64,000 nucleotides of DNA from Maritimibacter sp. DP1N21-5 (GTDB lineage Bacteria > Pseudomonadota > Alphaproteobacteria > Rhodobacterales > Rhodobacteraceae), in contig NZ_JAHUZF010000003.1 in NCBI RefSeq assembly GCF_019218295.1, positions 248,001 through 312,000 on the forward strand, given 5' to 3'. Shown here piece after piece: positions 42,754 through 52,049 of this stretch. A model generated the notes under the pieces. The model saw nothing but the letters and a program-made list of their open reading frames with translations, was not told the origin of the DNA and did not search any database. The translations under genes were made by a program, and so were the position numbers. Numbering within the stretch: the stretch's first letter is position 1; each line of letters begins with the position of its first letter.

Positions 42754-43081
42754 CCCCGTGGTCTATCGCCTTCGTCTGCCTTGGGGAAGGGCGCGCGAGA
42801 TAGGTGCCCCTTGCGCCCCGCTTCCCATGCTCCTTCACTGCTTCATAAATACCTCACGGGGGTCCGGGGGTGTGAAACCCCCGGCCCGCGCTCTCCGCGA
42901 GAGCCCCGGATGGCCTGTCTCACGAACGGTCCCAACCCGGAAGGGTCGCCCCGCCTTGTCCATAAGCGGCAACGCGCTGACGCTTGCGTGATCGGTGCGC
43001 GCGCCCCCGTGCAAAGTCGCCTCCCTTTGGTTACGCTCGACCCCGAGGCAGAAACACAAGAACACCAACCAAGGGACAGTC
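42754..43081. other. Intergenic region upstream of the GH25 gene
   Basis: About 330 bases between divergent genes. It holds a repeat-plus-hairpin element (42833-42884) and the upstream region of the GH25 lipoprotein gene. A frame open on the plus strand from 42995 leads into that gene but begins in sequence without a signal peptide, so it is not used. No other gene recognised. Confidence 0.6.
42833..42884 (+). repeat. Dispersed repeat with hairpin, copy 1
   Basis: A 20-base conserved head (CTTCACTGCTTC then AAATAC) followed by a G-rich stretch and a perfect hairpin CCGGGGGT / ACCCCCGG (42864-42871 with 42877-42884, loop GTGAA). The head matches copy 2 at 47228 at 18 of 20 positions and lies on the same strand. 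Elements of this pattern are common between genes in Rhodobacterales. Confidence 0.75.
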
Positions 43082-43930
43082 ATGTTCGCAACTCCCGCGA
43101 TGGCCAAAGGGCGGTCAACGCTCGTCATCCTCCTACTTCTTACAGCATTGGTGCTGACCGCCTGTGGCAAGAGCCCACAACGCGGCCGGCTCGAATCTCC
43201 ACGTGAATTGCTCGCCGAGAATTACCCGGCGCGCGGTATCCCCTCGCGCTTTGGCGACACCGATCCGCATGAGTGGGAGGGCATCATGCCCAACCGCTAT
43301 GCCGTCCATGGCATCGACGCGGCGCGCTATCAGGGCGAGATCGACTTCTTCTCCGCCAAGAACGCGGGCATCAGCTTTGCCTGGCTCAAGGCGACCGAGG
43401 GGGGCGACCACCTCGATCCGGGTTACGCGCTCAATGCACCGCGCGCACGCGCCGCCGGGGTGCCGGTCGGGGCCTATCACTTCTATTATTTCTGCCGCAC
43501 GCCCGAAGAACAGGCGCGCTGGTTCATCGCCAATGTCCCGCGCCAGCCGGGCGATCTTCCTCCGGTGCTCGACATGGAGTGGAACCACCAGTCGCGCAAT
43601 TGCCGCATCTTCCCGGAACCGGCCGAGATCCACGAGATCATTCGCCGCTATTCCCGGGTTATCCAGGCACATTACGGCACGCCCCCCGTAGTCTATGTGA
43701 CGCCGGACTTCTACGAAGACAACGCGCTGGGCACGCTGGGTGGGGTCGAGTTCTGGCTGCGTTCGGTCGCGGCGCATCCCTCGGAACGCTATCCCGGCGA
43801 ACGCTGGAGCTTCTGGCAGTATTCCGGCACCGGTGTCGCACCTGGGATCAAAGGCAACGTGGACCTGAACGCCTTTGCGGGCGATACCTCCTCCTGGGCC
43901 GGATGGCTCGCCGCGCGGGTTCAGCGTTAG
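43082..43930 (+). CDS. GH25 lysozyme-type lipoprotein
   Basis: A 282-residue glycoside hydrolase family 25 (Chalaropsis-type) muramidase. A lipoprotein signal precedes the lipobox LTAC (Cys28), so it is predicted to be tethered to a membrane. Catalytic-site blocks are visible: HGIDAARYQGEIDF with Asp, AWLKATEGGDH, the DxE motif VLDMEWNHQ, and FWQYSGTGVAPGIKGNVDLN. It would cleave peptidoglycan between MurNAc and GlcNAc. It is convergent with the following operon, 2 bases apart. Confidence 0.9.
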   Translation: MFATPAMAKGRSTLVILLLLTALVLTACGKSPQRGRLESPRELLAENYPARGIPSRFGDTDPHEWEGIMPNRYAVHGIDAARYQGEIDFFSAKNAGISFAWLKATEGGDHLDPGYALNAPRARAAGVPVGAYHFYYFCRTPEEQARWFIANVPRQPGDLPPVLDMEWNHQSRNCRIFPEPAEIHEIIRRYSRVIQAHYGTPPVVYVTPDFYEDNALGTLGGVEFWLRSVAAHPSERYPGERWSFWQYSGTGVAPGIKGNVDLNAFAGDTSSWAGWLAARVQR

Positions 43931-43932
43931 CG

Positions 43933-44235
43933 TCAGCGCGGGCGCATCGCCTGCGGCAAGGGAAGGCATCCCGGCAACCCCGCAGGCAGCACGATCAAGG
44001 CCCCGGCCCGGTAGAGCGGGCCGGTCGGCCCCGGCGGATCGGAGCGCAGGCTCACGCTCAGCGGCGACCGGTCCACCACCGCCACGCCGTCGGGCAGTTC
44101 CGCCAGAAAGCCCTGTCCGGGAAAGAGCACCACATGGGCCGGGGCGGCGTCCGACACAAGCCCCACCACCACCAGCACCAGGACCCAGCCGGCGACCATC
44201 GCCACCAGCCCAAGCGCAATCCGCCTAATAGTCAT
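43933..44235 (-). CDS. Small membrane protein of the oxidase operon
   Basis: A 100-residue protein with one N-terminal membrane helix (MTIRRIALGLVAMVAGWVL) and an exported tail of about 75 residues (FPGQGFLAELPDGVAVVDRS, then LYRAGALIVLPAG) with no recognised domain. It overlaps the preceding gene by 11 bases and is the last of four coupled genes running from 47150 down to 43933. Alternative starts exist a few codons upstream. Function unknown. Confidence 0.6.
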   Translation of the reverse strand: MTIRRIALGLVAMVAGWVLVLVVVGLVSDAAPAHVVLFPGQGFLAELPDGVAVVDRSPLSVSLRSDPPGPTGPLYRAGALIVLPAGLPGCLPLPQAMRPR

Positions 44236-45265
44236 GGACATGCTCGAGCACGAGCCCCCGCGCCGACAGGCCACGCAGCGTTGACGCAAGATCGGCCACC
44301 TTGACGAGGATCAGGTGCCGATAATCGCCATAGCCCTGCCGCGCAAAGCTGAAGAGCGCCCCTGCCACTTCCGGCTCGGGCGAAATCGCGGTCAGGAGGA
44401 TGTCGTCATTGCCCGCGATCTCCAAAAACTCCGCACCCTGCGTGGCCATCCGGTCGATCATCCCGGTCAGCACCCGGTAGCGCGGCGTCTCGATCACCGG
44501 TCCTTCGGGCAGGGTGCCTACCTCCCTCGCGCCCTCGGGCAGGGGAAAGGCACCTGTCACGACCATGCGCAGGGTCAGCGCATCGTTGCCTGTCGCCGCC
44601 ACCGCCGCCGCGATGGCCGCGGCGTAAGCGGCCTTGGCCCGGTTCTCGACGCCCAATGCAAAGCGTCGTTCCCGGTCGCGAAAGACACCCGTCGATGCCG
44701 CTGCCAGTTCCGCCTGTGCGCCGTCGAAATCCCACAGATACCACGGGGTCTGCTGCAGGAACCGCGCATAGTCCGCCGCCTGCCGCGCCGACAGTTCATC
44801 GAGTGGCGCGCGCTCCCGCCCCCCGATCCAGGTCGCGATGCGCCCCAGCGTTTCTTCGTAAACAGCCTTGAGCAGAAGCTCCGCCGTGAAGCTGACCCCG
44901 ATCACATAGACAAGCTGTTTCGTCGACCCATCGACGCCGCCCAAGGCGCCCGACGCCTTGGTCAGGGCGCAGAGCGACGACCAGTAACCGCCGATGGCAC
45001 GCAGATAACCGAAGTCGTGCGGGTCGCCGTCCGCGATCACCCGGCCGTAGTCGTCGTAGGCATGGACGATATGCCATTCGGGATAGGTCATGAGCGTGCG
45101 CGCCTCTGCCCGCCGCTGTCCCTCGGGCAGAAGGGGCACATAGGACTGCGCTTCCACTGGCGCGGTGCAGGAGAGCTCGTTGCGCGCGACGGGCAGCATC
45201 AGCACGACGACGATCAGCACGATCGCCAGACCCGCTCTGAGGCCCCAGCGCAGAAGCCGCCTCAT
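44225..45265 (-). CDS. Membrane-anchored protein of unknown function
   Basis: A 346-residue protein with an N-terminal membrane anchor (RAGLAIVLIVVVLMLPVA) and a large helical domain outside the cytoplasmic membrane. Recurrent, possibly conserved stretches are LMTYPEWHIVHAYDDY, DPHDFGYLRAIGGYW and FLQQTPWYLWDF. I do not recognise a named family. Its ATG overlaps the preceding gene's stop (ATGA), and it overlaps the small membrane gene that follows, so it is made together with the FAD oxidase. Confidence 0.65.
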   Translation of the reverse strand: MRRLLRWGLRAGLAIVLIVVVLMLPVARNELSCTAPVEAQSYVPLLPEGQRRAEARTLMTYPEWHIVHAYDDYGRVIADGDPHDFGYLRAIGGYWSSLCALTKASGALGGVDGSTKQLVYVIGVSFTAELLLKAVYEETLGRIATWIGGRERAPLDELSARQAADYARFLQQTPWYLWDFDGAQAELAAASTGVFRDRERRFALGVENRAKAAYAAAIAAAVAATGNDALTLRMVVTGAFPLPEGAREVGTLPEGPVIETPRYRVLTGMIDRMATQGAEFLEIAGNDDILLTAISPEPEVAGALFSFARQGYGDYRHLILVKVADLASTLRGLSARGLVLEHVHDY

Positions 45266-45669
45266 CGTCCACCCGTCTCTGTGACCCCGGCCCAGAGTGC
45301 GAAACCACCGAGCGCCAGATGCGGCAGGTTCGCAAAGAGCCGGGGCAGGGACCAGTCCATGCCGAGGCTTTCGTTGGTGAAGATCCCCATGTCGAGATAT
45401 CCCCAACCGGTGAAGAACCCGAAGACCCCGTCGCCCAGATAGGCCGCCCCGAAAAGAATGAGGAACGTTTGTGCCGCCCGGTGGCTCATGAACCCCGCGA
45501 TCAGCGCCCAAAGCGCCGAGGCGACGTGGAGCGCGTCGTCATAGAGGTCGAGCGCGAAGATCCCGAAGGCGAGTCCCTCGTCGTCGGTCAGACCGGGGAT
45601 GTAGTTCACCGACGCCGCGAGCATGAGCGCGACGAAATAGCCGAAACAGATGTAGCGAAGCCGTGTCAT
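45262..45669 (-). CDS. Four-helix membrane protein (DUF4383-like)
   Basis: A 135-residue integral membrane protein with about four helices (YFVALMLAASVNYIPG; ASALWALIAGFMSH; FLILFGAAYLGDGVFGFFTG; LFANLPHLALGGFALWAG). The pattern recalls DUF4383/DoxX-like small membrane proteins, but this is a weak match. Its start overlaps the FAD oxidase stop (ATGA) and its stop overlaps the next gene's start, making it the second of four coupled genes. It might be an electron or quinone partner or a simple anchor; the sequence does not decide. Confidence 0.6.
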   Translation of the reverse strand: MTRLRYICFGYFVALMLAASVNYIPGLTDDEGLAFGIFALDLYDDALHVASALWALIAGFMSHRAAQTFLILFGAAYLGDGVFGFFTGWGYLDMGIFTNESLGMDWSLPRLFANLPHLALGGFALWAGVTETGGR

Positions 45670-47150
45670 AGCGTCCTGAAGTAACGGTCCCAGAAAAGGT
45701 TGCGCAAGGTCAGCCCCGGATCGAGCGCCCGTTTCGCCGCGGCAAAGTCGGGGGCCGCCGGATAGGCCGCGACAAGCTGATCCTGCGTCGGATGCGGGCG
45801 ATAAGGCAGGTAATAGGTGCCACCGATGGCGATGACCGCCTCCACCAGTTCCCGCGTCATCCGCGCCATGTCGGCCTCGCCCCGTTCGGTCATCTCCTGC
45901 GAGAAGGACATCACGGCGGCGATGCGCGGCACCGGCGCATAGGTGAGCACGGACTCCGCGTCGGTGGCGACATAGCGTAGCGTCACGTTGAGGAACTCCT
46001 GGTAGGAAGCCGGAATGATCGCACGGCAGGCGGCAAGGAAGTCGCCGAAGCGATCGAAGCCCACGAAATACTCATGCAGGATATCGACCCGGCTCGGGTT
46101 GCGATCGTCGAGCGTCACCACCGGCTCGTTGATGAGCGAATTGCGTGTGACCGGCCCGCTCGCGACCATCGGCCCCAGCGTCGTCTCCTGCCACCACCGG
46201 AGCCGCTTCATCTGCTCGTTGCCCAGCTGCCAGCGATAGATCCGGCTCGCGGCGTGACTGACCCAGCCCGAGCCCGTGGCCTCGGGCAGATCCGCCTGAT
46301 CGGCGCTCTCGCGATAGGTGATGAGGAGCGCGTCCTCGAAAAACGCCGCACGCTCCACGTTGAGCCGCCCGTAGGCCATGGTCACATTCGGATCGTCGAG
46401 CGCCTTCTGGAGCGCAGGCGCGTATTCCTCGGCGGGCAACCGGTCGAAACTCGGCACGAGCCGCGTGTTCGGCGCGGCCTCGACCTCCATGTCCACGATC
46501 GCCCCGATCAGCCCGTAGCCCCCCATCGCCAGCCCGAAGAGCTCCGGGTTCTCCTGCCGCGAGGCCGTGACAAGCTCCCCGTCGGGCAAGACCATCCGTA
46601 GGCTGATGACCGTCGATCCCATCGGCCCGAAGGGCACGGGCCATCCGTGGGCGTTGACGGAATAGGTCGCGGCCACCCCGAAATCGTTGTTCGACTGCAT
46701 GACCTTGGGCGACAGGCCTACTGGATCAAGCGCGGCGATCACTTCGGACCAGCGCGCGCCAGCGTGGCAGAGATATCTCCCGGTCTCGCTGTCGACCTCC
46801 ACGAAGCCGTTGTCGAAGGTCACGGCATGGCCCCGCGCAGGGATCGCCTGACCACCCATCGAATGCCGCGCAGCCCCGATGTTGAAGGGCCGCCCGCTTT
46901 CCTGCGCCTCGCGCAGTTCCGCACGGATGGCAGAGACCAGCGCCTCGCCGGGACCATCGCGCAGGACGACATGTTTCGCGACAGGGGTCGCCGACAAGGT
47001 GGAGGCATCGTTCAGGACCGTGTCGCCTGCCGCCGGCTCGATCAGGGCCACACCGTCGAAGACCGGCAGCTTCGCCCCCGTCAGCCAGGCCGCGCCATAT
47101 CCCAAGGCCGCTCCCGTGCCCAACAACAGCGCCCGCCGCGTGATTGCCAT
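45666..47150 (-). CDS. Tat-exported FAD-dependent sugar/aldonolactone-type oxidase
   Basis: A 494-residue VAO-type flavoprotein. It starts with a twin-arginine signal (MAITRRALLLGTGAALG), so it is predicted to be exported folded. The FAD-binding domain carries GAARHSMGGQAI with His96 in the position that covalently binds FAD in alditol and aldonolactone oxidases. The C-terminus (DPGLTLRNLFWDRYF) resembles that of the D-arabinono-lactone/gulonolactone oxidase group. GGAGG is spaced 7 bases from ATG 47150, fixing this start over ATG 47156. First of four coupled genes; substrate and electron acceptor are unknown. Confidence 0.82.
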   Translation of the reverse strand: MAITRRALLLGTGAALGYGAAWLTGAKLPVFDGVALIEPAAGDTVLNDASTLSATPVAKHVVLRDGPGEALVSAIRAELREAQESGRPFNIGAARHSMGGQAIPARGHAVTFDNGFVEVDSETGRYLCHAGARWSEVIAALDPVGLSPKVMQSNNDFGVAATYSVNAHGWPVPFGPMGSTVISLRMVLPDGELVTASRQENPELFGLAMGGYGLIGAIVDMEVEAAPNTRLVPSFDRLPAEEYAPALQKALDDPNVTMAYGRLNVERAAFFEDALLITYRESADQADLPEATGSGWVSHAASRIYRWQLGNEQMKRLRWWQETTLGPMVASGPVTRNSLINEPVVTLDDRNPSRVDILHEYFVGFDRFGDFLAACRAIIPASYQEFLNVTLRYVATDAESVLTYAPVPRIAAVMSFSQEMTERGEADMARMTRELVEAVIAIGGTYYLPYRPHPTQDQLVAAYPAAPDFAAAKRALDPGLTLRNLFWDRYFRTL

Positions 47151-47227: not shown

Positions 47228-47287
47228 CTTCACTGCTTCTCAAATACTTCGGTGAGGGGTTTGGGGAGAGGCAGAGCCTCTCCCCAA
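47228..47287 (+). repeat. Dispersed repeat with hairpin, copy 2
   Basis: The head CTTCACTGCTTCTCAAATAC (47228-47247) matches copy 1 at 18 of 20 positions. It is followed by a perfect 12-bp stem TTGGGGAGAGGC / GCCTCTCCCCAA (47261-47272 with 47276-47287) and an AGA loop. Same strand as copy 1; together they bracket the GH25 gene and the four-gene oxidase operon. Confidence 0.75.
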
Positions 47288-47478
47288 GTCGGTCGGATGC
47301 CGCGCAAGCGGCATTCGAAGCCTCGTCGGCGCGCCCGCTTTCGCTCCGAGGCAGGCACTCGGCGGCAGTTCTGGCCGGTCCGTTCGCCACTCGTCGGGCG
47401 AAGGTCGTCTAACAATCTTAACCTTTGCGAAAGGCCTCAGAATGGCAAGCGATTGAAAACGCTCACGCTCCAAGGATT

Positions 47479-47580: not shown

Positions 47581-48999
47581 TCAGCTCGCCAGCACGTTCC
47601 GGAACAGCCAGGGATCGCTCTCGTCGATGTCTTCCTCGAACTGCGTCCAGCGGTTCGCGAGCGGTGTCCAGTCGGTGTAATGCGCCTCGACCGGGCCGAG
47701 ATAGGGACGTTGCACCTCGAGGCAGCGCACATGGTCCATCTCGTCGGTTTCGACGATCCCCGCTTCGGGGTTCTCGAGCGCCCAGACCATCCCCGCGAGC
47801 ACCGCCGAGGACACCTGAAGCCCCGTCGCATTTTGGAAGGGTGCCAGCTCCCGTGCCTCTTCGATGCTCAGACGCGAGCCATACCAGAGCGCGTTCTTCT
47901 CGTGCCCGTAGAGCAGCACGCCCAGCTCGTCCCTGCCGCCGATGATCTCGTTCTCGTCGAGGATGTGGTGCTTGGTCTGGGTCACGCCGGAGCCGAAACA
48001 CTCTTCCAAGGACAGCACCGCGTCGTCCGAGGGGCGATAGGCATAGTGGCAGGTCGGGCGATACGCCGGCGCATCAGGCGCCCCCACGGTGTAGTAATCC
48101 GAGATCGAGATCGCCTCGTTGTGCGTCACCAGAAACCCGTATTGCGGACCGGGCGTCGGGCACCAGGTATGCACCCGCGTGATCGCGCCGGGCCGCTCGA
48201 ACCAGATCCCCGCCTGGCACCCCGTGTCATAGCTGTGCGCCGTTTCCGGCAGCCACGTCTCATGCGTGCCCCAGCCCAGTTCCGCGGGCTGGAACCCCTC
48301 CGAGATAAAGCCCTCGACCGACCATGTGTTCACGAAGGTGCCCAAGGGCTTGGGCTGCGAGGACTTCTGCGTGTCGCGCTCCGCGATATGCACGCCCTTG
48401 ACGCCCAGTGACTGCATGAGCCGCGCCCAGTCTTCGCGGCTCGTCGGCATCGGGTCCGATCGCCCGGTGTCGGACACCAGGGTCATCAGCGCCTCTTTCA
48501 CGAACCACGACACCATGCCGGGGTTGGCCCCGCAGCAGCTCACCGCCGTCGGACCGCCGGGATTGCGGGCCTTTTCGTCGCGCACGGTCTGGCGCAGGGC
48601 ATAGTTCGTCCGGTCCGCGTTGTCGGGCGTGTCGAAATAGAACCCCTCCCAAGGCTCGACCACGGTGTCGATGTAGAGCACGCCCAGCTCACGGCAGAGC
48701 TTCATGATGTCGAGCGACGACGTGTCGACCGACAGGTTCACGCAGAACCCTTTCCCGTCGGGAAACAGGCCTGACAGAAGCGCGCGATAGTTCTCCCGCG
48801 TTACCTTTTCCTCGACGTGGCGGATGCCGCGCTGGGTCAAAAACGTATGTGCGTCATGGGACGGTTCGATCACCACGAACTGCTTGGCGTCATAGTCGAA
48901 ATGGCGTTCGATCAGGGGCAGCGTCCCGCGCCCGATGGAGCCGAAACCGATCATCACGATGGGGCCGTCGATATGGCCGTAGTTCGGATAATTCGTCAT
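47581..48999 (-). CDS. hss: Homospermidine synthase
   Basis: A 472-residue bacterial homospermidine synthase, making sym-homospermidine from two putrescines (or putrescine plus spermidine) with NAD. The N-terminal NAD motif is MIGFGSIGRGTLPL, followed by VVIEPSHDAHTF and the conserved CVNLSVDTSSLDIM, VVEPWEGFYFD and SCCGANPGMVSWF. The family is typical of alphaproteobacteria, where homospermidine is a major polyamine. It appears monocistronic, flanked by the palindrome-rich gap and the opg operon. Confidence 0.95.
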   Translation of the reverse strand: MTNYPNYGHIDGPIVMIGFGSIGRGTLPLIERHFDYDAKQFVVIEPSHDAHTFLTQRGIRHVEEKVTRENYRALLSGLFPDGKGFCVNLSVDTSSLDIMKLCRELGVLYIDTVVEPWEGFYFDTPDNADRTNYALRQTVRDEKARNPGGPTAVSCCGANPGMVSWFVKEALMTLVSDTGRSDPMPTSREDWARLMQSLGVKGVHIAERDTQKSSQPKPLGTFVNTWSVEGFISEGFQPAELGWGTHETWLPETAHSYDTGCQAGIWFERPGAITRVHTWCPTPGPQYGFLVTHNEAISISDYYTVGAPDAPAYRPTCHYAYRPSDDAVLSLEECFGSGVTQTKHHILDENEIIGGRDELGVLLYGHEKNALWYGSRLSIEEARELAPFQNATGLQVSSAVLAGMVWALENPEAGIVETDEMDHVRCLEVQRPYLGPVEAHYTDWTPLANRWTQFEEDIDESDPWLFRNVLAS

Positions 49000-49072: not shown

Positions 49073-50272
49073 CTACTCCGCAGGTAGCGGACGCGGTCCC
49101 TTGGCGACGAGGCTCCGCGCCTCCGGCTGGCCGATCCGGCGTTTCCAGTCGCCTAGCCAGGCGATGGCGATCAGCGCGAGGATGCCCGCCGGGATGTAGA
49201 GCCAGGGCACCAGCGGCTGGTCGGGATAGGCTTGCAGCAGCACCTGCCCGGCGAGCGACAGAAGCGCCCCGGCCGAGAAGATCAAGAGCCCCTGCCGCCC
49301 CATCACCCGCAGCGGCTCGGCCGCCCAATGGGCGCAGGCGTGGCGCACCAGCGGAAGGGATGCCACCACATAGGCGAGCGCCAGCGCATGGGTCATCCGC
49401 AGGACCGGCAGGAAGGTCTTGTCATGGCTCGTGACGTGGAAGGGGAACCCGATGTCGCGCAGGTCCGCCATCCGCGCGTTCATGAACGGCCCAAGCCCGG
49501 GCACATAGCGCCAGGCCAGCACGAAGACGAGCCATCCCGCCGCGATCCAGAACAGCGCCCGCGACTTCGGCACGAAGCTGTCGCCCCGCCGGGCGGCCAT
49601 GCCCGACAGGAGCCCGACGACGAAGATGAACTGCCAGGCGAAAGGATTGAAGAACCAGCCGCCGGGGTTTGGGTAGGCCGGGAAATTGAGCCGGAACAGG
49701 CCGGTGACGAACCAGAACGCGAGCGAGACCGCGAAGGTCTGCCACGGCCAGCGCCGCCCCGCCACGATGACCAGCGGCGCCGCCAGAAGCAGCGCGGAAT
49801 AAGCCGGAAGGATGTTCACATAGCCGATCTGGTGGCCCAGCGTCACGATCCCGATCAGTGCGTCGTCGGTGTTGATGAAGACCTGCCGCAGGTTGTTCTT
49901 CATCAGAAGCGACGGCTCGGAGAAGATCTTGGCCCCGATCGCAAAGATCGCGATGCCCGCGATGGTCAGGAAGATATGCGACAGATACAGAACCCAGGCG
50001 CGTTTCCACACCGGCGCGATCCCCTGCCAGAGGCTGGTGATCCCATCGGTCAGCCGCCCGGAATAGGCGATCCCCGCCGCGATCCCCGACATGATGAAAA
50101 AGCTCTCCGCCGCGTCCGAGAAGCCCCAGTTGCGGATCGTGAGCCAGCTTTCATAGGGGTTGCCCGGCACATGGTCGATGAAGATCATGGCGAGCAGGAG
50201 CCCGCGAAAGGCGTCGATCCGCGGATCGCGGGCGCGTTTCGTGTCGATCGTCGGTGTCTCAGGCCGGGACAT
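49073..50272 (-). CDS. opgC: Osmoregulated periplasmic glucan succinyltransferase OpgC
   Basis: A 399-residue membrane protein with about ten helices and an N-terminal PRIDAFRGLLLAMIFIDHVPGNPYE block typical of acyltransferase-3/OpgC proteins. It adds succinyl groups to periplasmic glucans, giving them negative charge. Its start lies 14 bases inside the end of opgH, so it is the last gene of opgGIHC, the order described for Rhodobacter sphaeroides. Confidence 0.9.
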   Translation of the reverse strand: MSRPETPTIDTKRARDPRIDAFRGLLLAMIFIDHVPGNPYESWLTIRNWGFSDAAESFFIMSGIAAGIAYSGRLTDGITSLWQGIAPVWKRAWVLYLSHIFLTIAGIAIFAIGAKIFSEPSLLMKNNLRQVFINTDDALIGIVTLGHQIGYVNILPAYSALLLAAPLVIVAGRRWPWQTFAVSLAFWFVTGLFRLNFPAYPNPGGWFFNPFAWQFIFVVGLLSGMAARRGDSFVPKSRALFWIAAGWLVFVLAWRYVPGLGPFMNARMADLRDIGFPFHVTSHDKTFLPVLRMTHALALAYVVASLPLVRHACAHWAAEPLRVMGRQGLLIFSAGALLSLAGQVLLQAYPDQPLVPWLYIPAGILALIAIAWLGDWKRRIGQPEARSLVAKGPRPLPAE

Positions 50273-52049
50273 GATGGCCCTCCGTCAGCCCCGGTTCGGT
50301 GCGCGGCGAGATGGCGCGCGACCAGCGGGCGTGAATGCTGCGATAACGCGCGATCACATCGGGCACCTCGGCTTCTTCCGGCACGGCGAAAAGCTTGCCG
50401 CGTGCGGGTTGCGACGACCAGGAAATCAGGATCGGCGCCGCCATCATGGGCAGGGTCACGGGCAGGAGCCAGGGCATCAGTCCCGGAGAAAGCTGTGCCG
50501 TGACCAGAAGCGCCGTCAGTCCGAGGAGCGCGATCCATCCGGACGCGCGCGCCGCCTGACCGAGGGTCAGCGCCCCTTCGCCCCGGGCGTGGGCCGGCCA
50601 GCCGCCATCCTGTCCCGTCGCCACCTGAATGACCGCCCGGGTCTGAAAGGCGAGCATGACCGGCGCGAGGAACGAGCTAAGCAGGATGTCCGTCACGACG
50701 GAGACAGCCGAGCGACCGGCGCCGCCAAAGCTGCGGCTGCGCCCGCTCAGGCTCGAGGTGATCCAGATGGCCACCTTCGGCATGATCAGCATCCCGATGA
50801 TCCCGAGCGCCAGCGCCGTGATCTCGCGCGAGCGGTCGGAGGGGAAAACCGGGAAAAGCTGGTATGGGTCGGGGAAATAATCGGGCTCCGGCGCGAAAGC
50901 GGTGCCCGCGATGGTGGTGACGAGGAAGGCGGCCCATAGCACCGAGACGACATAGGCGAAGATGCCCTGAACGAACACATATCGGCTCCACCCGGCAAGC
51001 CCCGGCGCCATGAGCAGCCGGATGTGCTGGAGGTTGCCCTGGCACCAGCGCCGGTCGCGCTTGGCATAGGCGAGCACGTTCTCGGGCCCTTCTTCGAAGC
51101 TCCCCTCGATCCCGCTGTCGGCCACCACGCGCCAGCCACCGCGCGCCAGAAGTGCGGCCTCGACATAGTCGTGCGACAGGATATGTCCGCCGAATGGGGG
51201 CCGTCCGGACAGTTCCGGCAACCCGCAGGACTGGGCGAATGCCGTAACCCGGATGATCGCGTTGTGGCCCCAGTAGGGCCCCGTCGCCCCCTGCATCCGC
51301 TCGAGCCCCCGGGTGAAGACCGGGCCGTGGAAGGCGCTCGCGAATTGCATGGCCCGGCCAAACAGGCTCCCGGCCCCGACGATGCGCGGCAGGGTCTGCA
51401 AGAGCCCGAGCTTCGGATCAGCCTCCATCCGCGCGACCATCTGGCCCAGTGCAGACCCCGACATGAGACTGTCGGCATCGAGCGTCACGGCGTAGACATA
51501 GGCCCCGCCCGATCGCCGGATGAAGTCCTCGACGTTGCCCGCCTTGCGCCCCCGGTTGTCGGTGCGGTTGCGGTAGAAGATGCGCCCGGCGCCCTGCGTT
51601 TCCGCGATGAGCATCCGGAAGGCGGCCTGTTCAGCGGCCTGTCCGGCCTCGGACCGCGTGTCCGACAGGATCACGATGTCCATGTCGAGCGCCTCGGAGC
51701 GGATGCTCGCATCCATTGCGGCAATGCGCGCGAAGGTTGCCACCGGGTCTTCGTTGCAGATCGGCACGAGCACCACCGTCGCGCCATAGTCGCGCGGCAT
51801 TGGCAGGACCGCGCGCCGCCCGCGCGGCCAGAGGCCGGTCAGCGCCAGTACCGCCCCCCAGGCAAGCCATCCGGTGGTGACGAGGATCAACCCCACCCGC
51901 ATCGCATCCCAGATCTGCCAGCCGTCCTGTTGGCCGGCATCCGCGACCATGACCGCCGCGCCGATGGCGGCGAAGGCCGTGAAGGCCAGAGCCACGGCGC
52001 GAACCCGGACCGTGCGTCGATCCGGGGGAAGGTGCGTTCGGGTTGTCAC
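50259..52049 (-). CDS. opgH: Periplasmic glucan glucosyltransferase OpgH
   Basis: A 596-residue inner-membrane GT2 family enzyme that polymerises the beta-glucan backbone from UDP-glucose. An N-terminal helix pair precedes the catalytic domain (VVLVPICNEDP, then the metal-binding DADS at 191-194 and the RRWCQGNLQH acceptor motif), followed by several C-terminal helices. It starts at GTG with GAGG overlapping the opgI stop. The reading frame is identical to that of opgI, and a single TGA separates them; the N-terminal portion of longer OpgH proteins corresponds to opgI. Confidence 0.93.
   Translation of the reverse strand: MTTRTHLPPDRRTVRVRAVALAFTAFAAIGAAVMVADAGQQDGWQIWDAMRVGLILVTTGWLAWGAVLALTGLWPRGRRAVLPMPRDYGATVVLVPICNEDPVATFARIAAMDASIRSEALDMDIVILSDTRSEAGQAAEQAAFRMLIAETQGAGRIFYRNRTDNRGRKAGNVEDFIRRSGGAYVYAVTLDADSLMSGSALGQMVARMEADPKLGLLQTLPRIVGAGSLFGRAMQFASAFHGPVFTRGLERMQGATGPYWGHNAIIRVTAFAQSCGLPELSGRPPFGGHILSHDYVEAALLARGGWRVVADSGIEGSFEEGPENVLAYAKRDRRWCQGNLQHIRLLMAPGLAGWSRYVFVQGIFAYVVSVLWAAFLVTTIAGTAFAPEPDYFPDPYQLFPVFPSDRSREITALALGIIGMLIMPKVAIWITSSLSGRSRSFGGAGRSAVSVVTDILLSSFLAPVMLAFQTRAVIQVATGQDGGWPAHARGEGALTLGQAARASGWIALLGLTALLVTAQLSPGLMPWLLPVTLPMMAAPILISWSSQPARGKLFAVPEEAEVPDVIARYRSIHARWSRAISPRTEPGLTEGHHVPA

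Follow-up and report, generated by a model that had tools for sequence, protein, structure and literature searches.

A conserved four-gene cassette encoding a flavoenzyme and candidate membrane partners in Maritimibacter and its relatives

What is the role of four overlapping genes that lie on the minus strand, from 47156 to 43933, of a 64,000-nucleotide stretch of the Maritimibacter sp. DP1N21-5 genome (contig NZ_JAHUZF010000003.1, positions 248,001 to 312,000; the whole stretch is called the window here)? The genes encode a flavoenzyme of 496 residues and proteins of 135, 346 and 100 residues (Table 1), and all four reading frames are present. A first-pass annotation of the DNA had proposed a periplasmic oxidase complex that passes electrons to a membrane partner, and had named beforehand the co-occurrence of the genes in other genomes as its check. 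Co-occurrence proved strong, survived an altered gene order and extended to motifs of the 346-residue protein that track the enzyme. That this is a genuine, conserved cassette whose genes are linked in function we consider very probable. There is good support for a flavoenzyme unit tied to the membrane, but the word oxidase is doubtful; we favor, at a probability of about 0.4, a membrane-linked periplasmic flavodehydrogenase unit that hands electrons to the membrane.

Conservation and co-occurrence of the four genes

The window junctions of the genes for the enzyme and the 135-, 346- and 100-residue proteins, in that order, are ATGA, ATGA and an overlap of 11 nucleotides, as had been claimed; the enzyme start given earlier, 47150, lies in a real frame but is a second ATG, and the gene was taken from 47156. 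A contig scan with the 346-residue protein, in which MTYPEWHI was among the search patterns, yielded 73 relative loci, by their titles mostly from Rhodobacteraceae and relatives and from many genera. The enzyme and 135-residue protein genes were offset by -4 in 65 of 72 loci, the 135- and 346-residue protein genes by -4 in 52 of 72 (and by -1 in 13 more), and the 346- and 100-residue protein genes by -11 in 57 of 67 (and by -17 in 8 more). The overlaps exceed chance, recurring across the loci of relatives. All four genes were found in 66 of the 73 loci and the first three in six, two of which (L095 and L098) stop inside the third gene; the remaining locus, L074, starts at a contig edge just ahead of the third gene.

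Within the family, 295 genomes were searched with the 346-residue protein (E ≤ 1e-5), an enzyme profile (E ≤ 1e-60) and a 135-residue protein profile (E ≤ 1e-10), which matched in 33, 32 and 29 genomes, respectively. All first three genes were present in 29 genomes, and 259 had none at these E limits; no cassette gene was found at these limits in G229, the other genome in the set that belongs to the window's genus. The 346-residue protein gene occurred alone in four genomes, as fragments in G021 and G153 and as a full-length divergent copy in G147 and G292, and the 135-residue protein gene occurred alone in none (0/295). Wider samples gave 4 of 385 genomes for the class (two from the window's family), 15 of 299 for the phylum (four from the window's family) and 1 of 78 for another class, the last being a fragment in a genome also present in the phylum sample. 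The cassette is scattered among bacteria, most of them marine.

The linkage of the enzyme to its partners persists through REARRANGEMENT in two distant alphaproteobacterial families, f171 and f174. In all eight enzyme-holding loci of these families (L126, L127 and L131 in f171; L128, L129 and L145-L147 in f174), the enzyme gene is on the opposite strand and convergent on the 135- and 346-residue protein genes, and enzyme identity is 28-30% overall in the five that were aligned. Two intermediate loci, L124 and L125 (enzyme identity 51 and 48%), retain the operon order. The residues surviving at this distance are RHSMG and MQ in the enzyme and PEW in the 346-residue protein, except in L130, a solo copy. 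A relative of the 100-residue protein was weakly matched in L126 (E = 1e-4) and L127 (E = 4e-5). Alignments were made from diverse subsets of 57 (A1), 44 (A2), 37 (A3) and 30 (A4) sequences, out of 60 preselected plus the window's own. Across 64 sequence sets including the window's, pairwise distances correlated at 0.80 between the enzyme and the 135-residue protein, at 0.58 between the enzyme and the 346-residue protein and at 0.39 to 0.58 for the other pairs, at least partly because of shared ancestry. Left out were sequences with internal stops (the L080 enzyme, the L088 135-residue protein, and the L013 and L041 346-residue proteins), L029 (no start codon upstream of the match) and one 346-residue protein homologue of 418 residues.

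Two motifs of the 346-residue protein follow the enzyme. Among 88 homologues of at least 250 residues (the shorter L041, L095, L098, L107, L108, L109, L131 and L132 were excluded), 83 had the enzyme and the 135-residue protein gene in the fetched stretch, and these held [TS][YF]PEW in 83/83 and EHxxDY in 81/83, the rest reading EHVHDF and EQVHDY. Five (L074, L104, L105, L130 and L144) had no enzyme or 135-residue protein gene in view. Of these, L074, at its contig edge, was not counted as solo and holds both YPEW and EHxxDY; the four solo homologues have neither motif as defined (4/4), a contrast that is consistent but small because the solo copies represent about three lineages. MTYPEWHI was present in 58/73 loci and was the sole pattern held in 41/73, and because it was a search pattern, the presence of YPEW in pattern-found loci is partly selected. 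Where the loci had been found by similarity or profile, the contrast held as well. A first set (L102, L103, L106, L124-L129, L145-L147, L149 and L150) held YPEW in 14/14 and EHxxDY in 14/14. A second set (L010-L028 minus L013, whose 149-residue copy has an internal stop) held them in 18/18 and 16/18; the L012 enzyme sits on another contig, and some loci of this set may duplicate species among the named loci.

Table 1. Genes of the cassette and its immediate neighbors, in window coordinates.
Feature	Position	Strand	Characteristics
Enzyme gene, 496 residues	45666..47156	-	Tat-type RR (twin-arginine translocation), N-terminal helix, FAD_binding_4 (residues 76-198), RHSMGG, candidate flavin-linking His98, Gln154
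Gene of 135-residue four-helix membrane protein	45262..45669	-	DUF4383-like; invariant Asp/His set
Gene of 346-residue protein	44225..45265	-	N-terminal membrane helix, helical region, C-terminal alpha/beta domain; TYPEW (60-64), EHxxDY (341-346)
Gene of 100-residue protein	43933..44235	-	One membrane helix and a small domain; conserved Trp17, Gly78, Cys90
Saccharopine-dehydrogenase-like gene	47581-48999		Upstream of cassette; no substrate hint
GH25 lysozyme gene	42995-43930	opposite to cassette	Beyond the end of the cassette; no substrate hint

The flavoenzyme and its membrane partners

The FAD_binding_4 domain (PF01565; FAD, flavin adenine dinucleotide) of the enzyme scored 57.5 bits against a Pfam cut-off of 26.4, which places it among the VAO/PCMH flavoproteins. 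Enzyme sequences could be aligned from 69 of the 73 loci (L029, L074, L080 and L088 gave none). The RR pair is present in 68 of these, the exception being L052, which is cut by a contig end, and the RHS of the flavin motif noted earlier is present in 69/69. The structural model (predicted local distance difference test, pLDDT, 88.7) has a helix at residues 7-26. Foldseek returned 313 PDB matches at E ≤ 0.001, and the 50 listed were DprE1 and L-galactono-1,4-lactone dehydrogenase (GalDH).

HMMER aligned residues 78-235 to GalDH, with His98 at GalDH Leu56 and Gln154 at GalDH Ala113, the gatekeeper position that determines oxygen reactivity in related enzymes. The alignment has a one-residue gap between these two sites but runs without a gap from Gln154 as far as the AHG motif, and the A113G variant 8qnc has its Gly in the Gln154 column. 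According to PMC11099136, oxygen is blocked by Ala113, which contacts the flavin at its N5-C4a locus; A113G yields an oxidase (oxygen reactivity rose 70- and 300-fold in two enzymes); the Leu56 position is His in GULO and ALO, where the covalent His accompanies Gly; and cytochrome c is suggested as the GalDH electron acceptor. A gatekeeper Gly or Pro is found in many VAO-family oxidases, according to PMC5082570, which cites Leferink et al. 2009. The window enzyme thus has His and Gln, as opposed to Leu and Ala in GalDH or His and Gly in GULO and ALO. The His at the attachment position, present in 69/69 enzymes, is the sequence-level mark of histidyl-linked FAD. Gln154 is Gln in 69/69 enzymes and in relatives of 28% identity; the Gly or Pro typical of many oxidases, which is no strict rule, is not found there. 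Because the gatekeeper position is an invariant Gln and not Gly or Pro, the enzyme is likelier to be a dehydrogenase than an oxidase, and oxidase was probably the wrong word for it in the first-pass annotation.

As a control, one of seven other FAD_binding_4 proteins of the window's genome could be aligned at the gatekeeper (n = 1). This protein, L005 (C6:425871-426236), which by motif we take to be DprE1-like, has Pro in the gatekeeper column and no His in the attachment column. Arg394 of the cassette enzyme is invariant, in a region reading YLPYR (FLPYQ in distant relatives), and is at most a candidate equivalent of Arg388 from the catalytic Arg388-Lys456 pair of the aldonolactone enzymes. 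No Lys in the enzyme alignment could be assigned as the counterpart of the catalytic aldonolactone Lys456.

The likeness to GalDH covers profile positions 73-245 of the FAD domain (E = 4e-21) and the overall model, which resembles 8qmy with template modelling (TM) scores of 0.69/0.72 in Foldseek. The window enzyme differs from GalDH, GULO and ALO in its Tat-type signal and dedicated membrane partners, in having no match to PF04030 (ALO) at E ≤ 0.1 (a distant relative scored 19.8 against a cut-off of 23.1), and in scores of 40.5 against 396.8 for TIGR01678 and 33.4 against 458.25 for TIGR01676. A reading in terms of a lactone pathway was set aside, since the aldonolactone models miss their cut-offs. 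The best Foldseek matches were to DprE1 (E = 2.7e-23, TM 0.70/0.81), at 15-18% identity among the matches listed, and the NCBIfam DprE1 model NF053785 scored 45.2 against a cut-off of 500, outside membership. No description of the cassette was found in the open-licence papers searched (DUF4383, Tat FAD oxidase in Rhodobacteraceae, Ruegeria locus tags). The flavoenzyme superfamily is known; its partners here and their arrangement were not found described in those papers.

Family-averaged hydropathy of the 135-residue protein has four peaks, near residues 8-24, 46-62, 70-86 and 111-127, in line with the four helices proposed earlier, but only two segments passed when the window protein was scanned by itself under a stricter rule (mean above 1.4 over 19 residues). 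The protein matched DUF4383 (PF14325) with 25.2 bits against a gathering cut-off of 27, in the middle of the profile only; all 37 aligned family members matched at E ≤ 0.01 (best 6.4e-10). Annotation calls the orthologue DUF4383 in Ruegeria pomeroyi and hypothetical in Ruegeria sp. TM1040. Against PDB sequences, the family profile had no match below E 0.3. Asp41, Asp44, Asp45, His48, Asp80, Asp93 and His117 are invariant in 71/71 relatives, and all but Asp41 and Asp44 are retained in the distant relatives too. If the N terminus is inside, as the charges suggest, helices 2 to 4 would carry these residues at, or close to, their periplasmic ends.

The earlier statement that the two middle proteins match no family was right for the 346-residue protein but not for the 135-residue protein, with its sub-threshold DUF4383 match. 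Neither the 346- nor the 100-residue protein had a significant match in Pfam, NCBIfam or PHROGs, nor did three distant 346-residue relatives and one 100-residue relative in Pfam, and a profile search of PDB sequences with the 346-residue family gave nothing below E 0.3. In the 346-residue model, which is confident (pLDDT 92.6, predicted TM score, pTM, 0.89), residues 2-32 form one long N-terminal helix, residues 56-225 are helical and residues 231-346 make up an alpha/beta domain. Of its 159 Foldseek matches in the PDB, none reached E ≤ 0.001. Cys33 and Cys99 are present in 69/69 close relatives, both are kept in f171, L124, L104, L105 and L106, and both are absent in L128-L130, a pattern that would fit a disulfide on the periplasmic side.

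Some other copies of this gene were observed. In two family genomes (L104 and L105), a full-length relative stands alone, with Cys33 and Cys99 and without YPEW and EHxxDY, near an open reading frame that is presumably ImuB. An environmental Legionella adelaidensis strain carries a solo relative of about 24% identity on a plasmid (L144:8956-10017), with no enzyme or 135-residue protein match in the fetched stretch. The 346-residue protein gene of genome G184 is split by a transposase gene of the IS1182 family (L107:3804-5228; NCBIfam 422.7 bits against 270) and is adjoined by the genes of the enzyme and the 135- and 100-residue proteins.

Genomic setting and neighboring genes

In at least 20 of the 73 loci the fetched DNA encodes an alpha/beta hydrolase whose N terminus bears a hydrophobic stretch; this is a lower bound because the fetched stretches vary in length. 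The hydrolase is on the enzyme's strand in 18 of the 20, directly upstream with its match ending within 50 nucleotides of the enzyme start in 11, and it adjoins the 135-residue protein gene in all three f171 loci. The L126 copy matched Pfam Abhydrolase_1, and three copies matched various alpha/beta hydrolase families, all far below the cut-offs. No copy of the hydrolase adjoins the window cassette, and the relatives of it encoded in the window's genome are all weaker (33% identity at best). The absence of a substrate gene noted in the first pass holds for the window, but the relatives above carry the hydrolase. SPOA0087a, an 'Esterase-lipase' in PMC4334477, was dropped as a link to the cassette, as no hydrolase match was obtained in the Ruegeria pomeroyi locus (L102).

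Thirteen of the 73 loci share one chromosomal site, between two recurrent open reading frames that we take to be xthA and a thioredoxin-like gene; what looks like a LON-domain frame also recurs. These flanking frames mark a shared chromosomal site and give no pathway hint. The cassette fragments of G021 lie beside the same thioredoxin-like and LON-like frames, and together with the shared site they point to an old chromosomal site with losses. The surroundings of the window cassette differ from this site. The cassette is on megaplasmids in Ruegeria sp. TM1040 and in Ruegeria pomeroyi DSS-3, where its genes are SPO_RS20280, SPO_RS20285, SPO_RS20290 and SPO_RS22675, and the Tritonibacter record is also a plasmid. 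An integrase and an AlpA-type regulator are encoded 6-8 kb from the cassette on the Ruegeria pomeroyi megaplasmid (L102:1-8000), which suggests past mobility.

The site scan found no promoter-like site, and there was no Rfam match; four terminator-like sites were found versus 2.1 (standard deviation 1.5) expected. Upstream of the operon, at 47242-47290, AAATAC is followed by a perfect stem of 12 base pairs, possibly a terminator or an intergenic repeat, and a similar arrangement with an 8-base-pair stem is at 42847. At 49073-52049, an OpgC-domain gene overlaps a family 2 glycosyltransferase gene, and the pair is perhaps an osmoregulated periplasmic glucan operon.

A candidate periplasmic dehydrogenase and the alternatives

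The favored flavodehydrogenase unit could work as follows. The enzyme would fold with FAD and then be exported by the Tat system, and its N-terminal helix may remain as an anchor. His98 probably binds FAD covalently and Gln154 probably shields the flavin from oxygen, so that a partner protein would receive the electrons taken from the substrate. For this role the four-helix DUF4383-like protein is the likeliest candidate; its residues His48, His117, Asp45, Asp80 and Asp93, predicted towards the periplasmic side, could bind quinone, haem or a metal and lead electrons to the quinone pool. A membrane protein as electron acceptor, as the first pass had proposed, would fit both the invariant Gln gatekeeper and these invariant His and Asp residues. 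The anchored 346-residue protein may dock the enzyme, or help to close its active site, through YPEW and EHxxDY, the 100-residue protein may be an accessory subunit, and the anchored alpha/beta hydrolase may release the substrate in some species. The fuller proposal, a new entry to the respiratory chain that runs from a covalent-flavin periplasmic dehydrogenase to a DUF4383-type membrane protein, with the 346-residue protein as a novel kind of anchored partner that gates the enzyme by means of its two motifs, is tentative, and we hold it with less confidence than the dehydrogenase unit itself.

Several observations weigh against this reading. None of the membrane partners shows an identified redox cofactor motif, and no ligand is known for the His/Asp cluster of the 135-residue protein. 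In the aldonolactone enzymes the linking His accompanies an oxidase-type Gly, whereas here it would accompany Gln. The enzyme occurs without its partners in 3/295 genomes (G053, G161 and G243), the match missing the last 74 model positions in G053 and being full length in the other two. Solo copies of the 346-residue protein exist; the four full-length ones represent only about three lineages, and one of them, L130, keeps the EH of EHxxDY (EHVYADD). In an f171 genome (L131:7180-7671) the 346-residue protein gene is shortened to an open reading frame of 163 residues while the enzyme and 135-residue protein genes are present, and the third protein may therefore not be needed in that genome. The RR pair and the modelled helix at residues 7-26 would suit the Tat signal claimed earlier, but f171 enzymes have no twin arginine, and no segment of the window enzyme, signal region included, reaches a mean hydropathy of 1.4 over 19 residues; the N-terminal anchor is uncertain for these two reasons.

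A true periplasmic oxidase, reducing oxygen to hydrogen peroxide while the membrane proteins merely anchor it or deliver substrate, would account for the retention of the enzyme alone in three genomes, and the VAO-type fold and the aligned flavin-linking His, tied to oxidase activity in the aldonolactone enzymes, point the same way. It is put in doubt by the invariant Gln154, where many superfamily oxidases have Gly or Pro, and we regard it as unlikely. We give slightly less weight still to an envelope-lipid or glycan oxidase like DprE1, to which the anchored proteins would present a membrane-bound lipid or sugar carrier for envelope remodelling. DprE1 heads the structural matches, the partners are membrane proteins, and an anchored alpha/beta hydrolase recurs; the reduced flavin of DprE1 can pass electrons to menaquinone or oxygen, according to PMC11841060. 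However, the score of the NCBIfam DprE1 model, near 45, is far from its cut-off, no counterpart of the catalytic Lys could be assigned, and the annotated Ruegeria records show no DprE2-like reductase next to the cassette, where no sequence search was made for one.

The genes might also be linked only as a horizontally moved set, with no physical complex among the products. The distribution is patchy (29/295 genomes), the Ruegeria and Tritonibacter copies are in plasmid records, and G229, the only further genome searched from the window's genus, has no cassette. Such a set would hardly be expected to keep its linkage at 28-30% enzyme identity despite an altered gene order, or to couple the motifs of the 346-residue protein to the enzyme, and inheritance looks partly vertical because 13/73 loci share one chromosomal site. 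We consider this explanation very improbable.

If the dehydrogenase unit is real, it would give a role to three families that have none (the DUF4383-like, 346-residue and 100-residue proteins), the first for DUF4383. Having a candidate flavin-linking His together with a gatekeeper Gln, the enzyme puts to the test current views of how oxidases and dehydrogenases among the flavoenzymes come to differ. The unit would also add a periplasmic electron donor to the Rhodobacteraceae and their relatives, including the model organism Ruegeria pomeroyi DSS-3.

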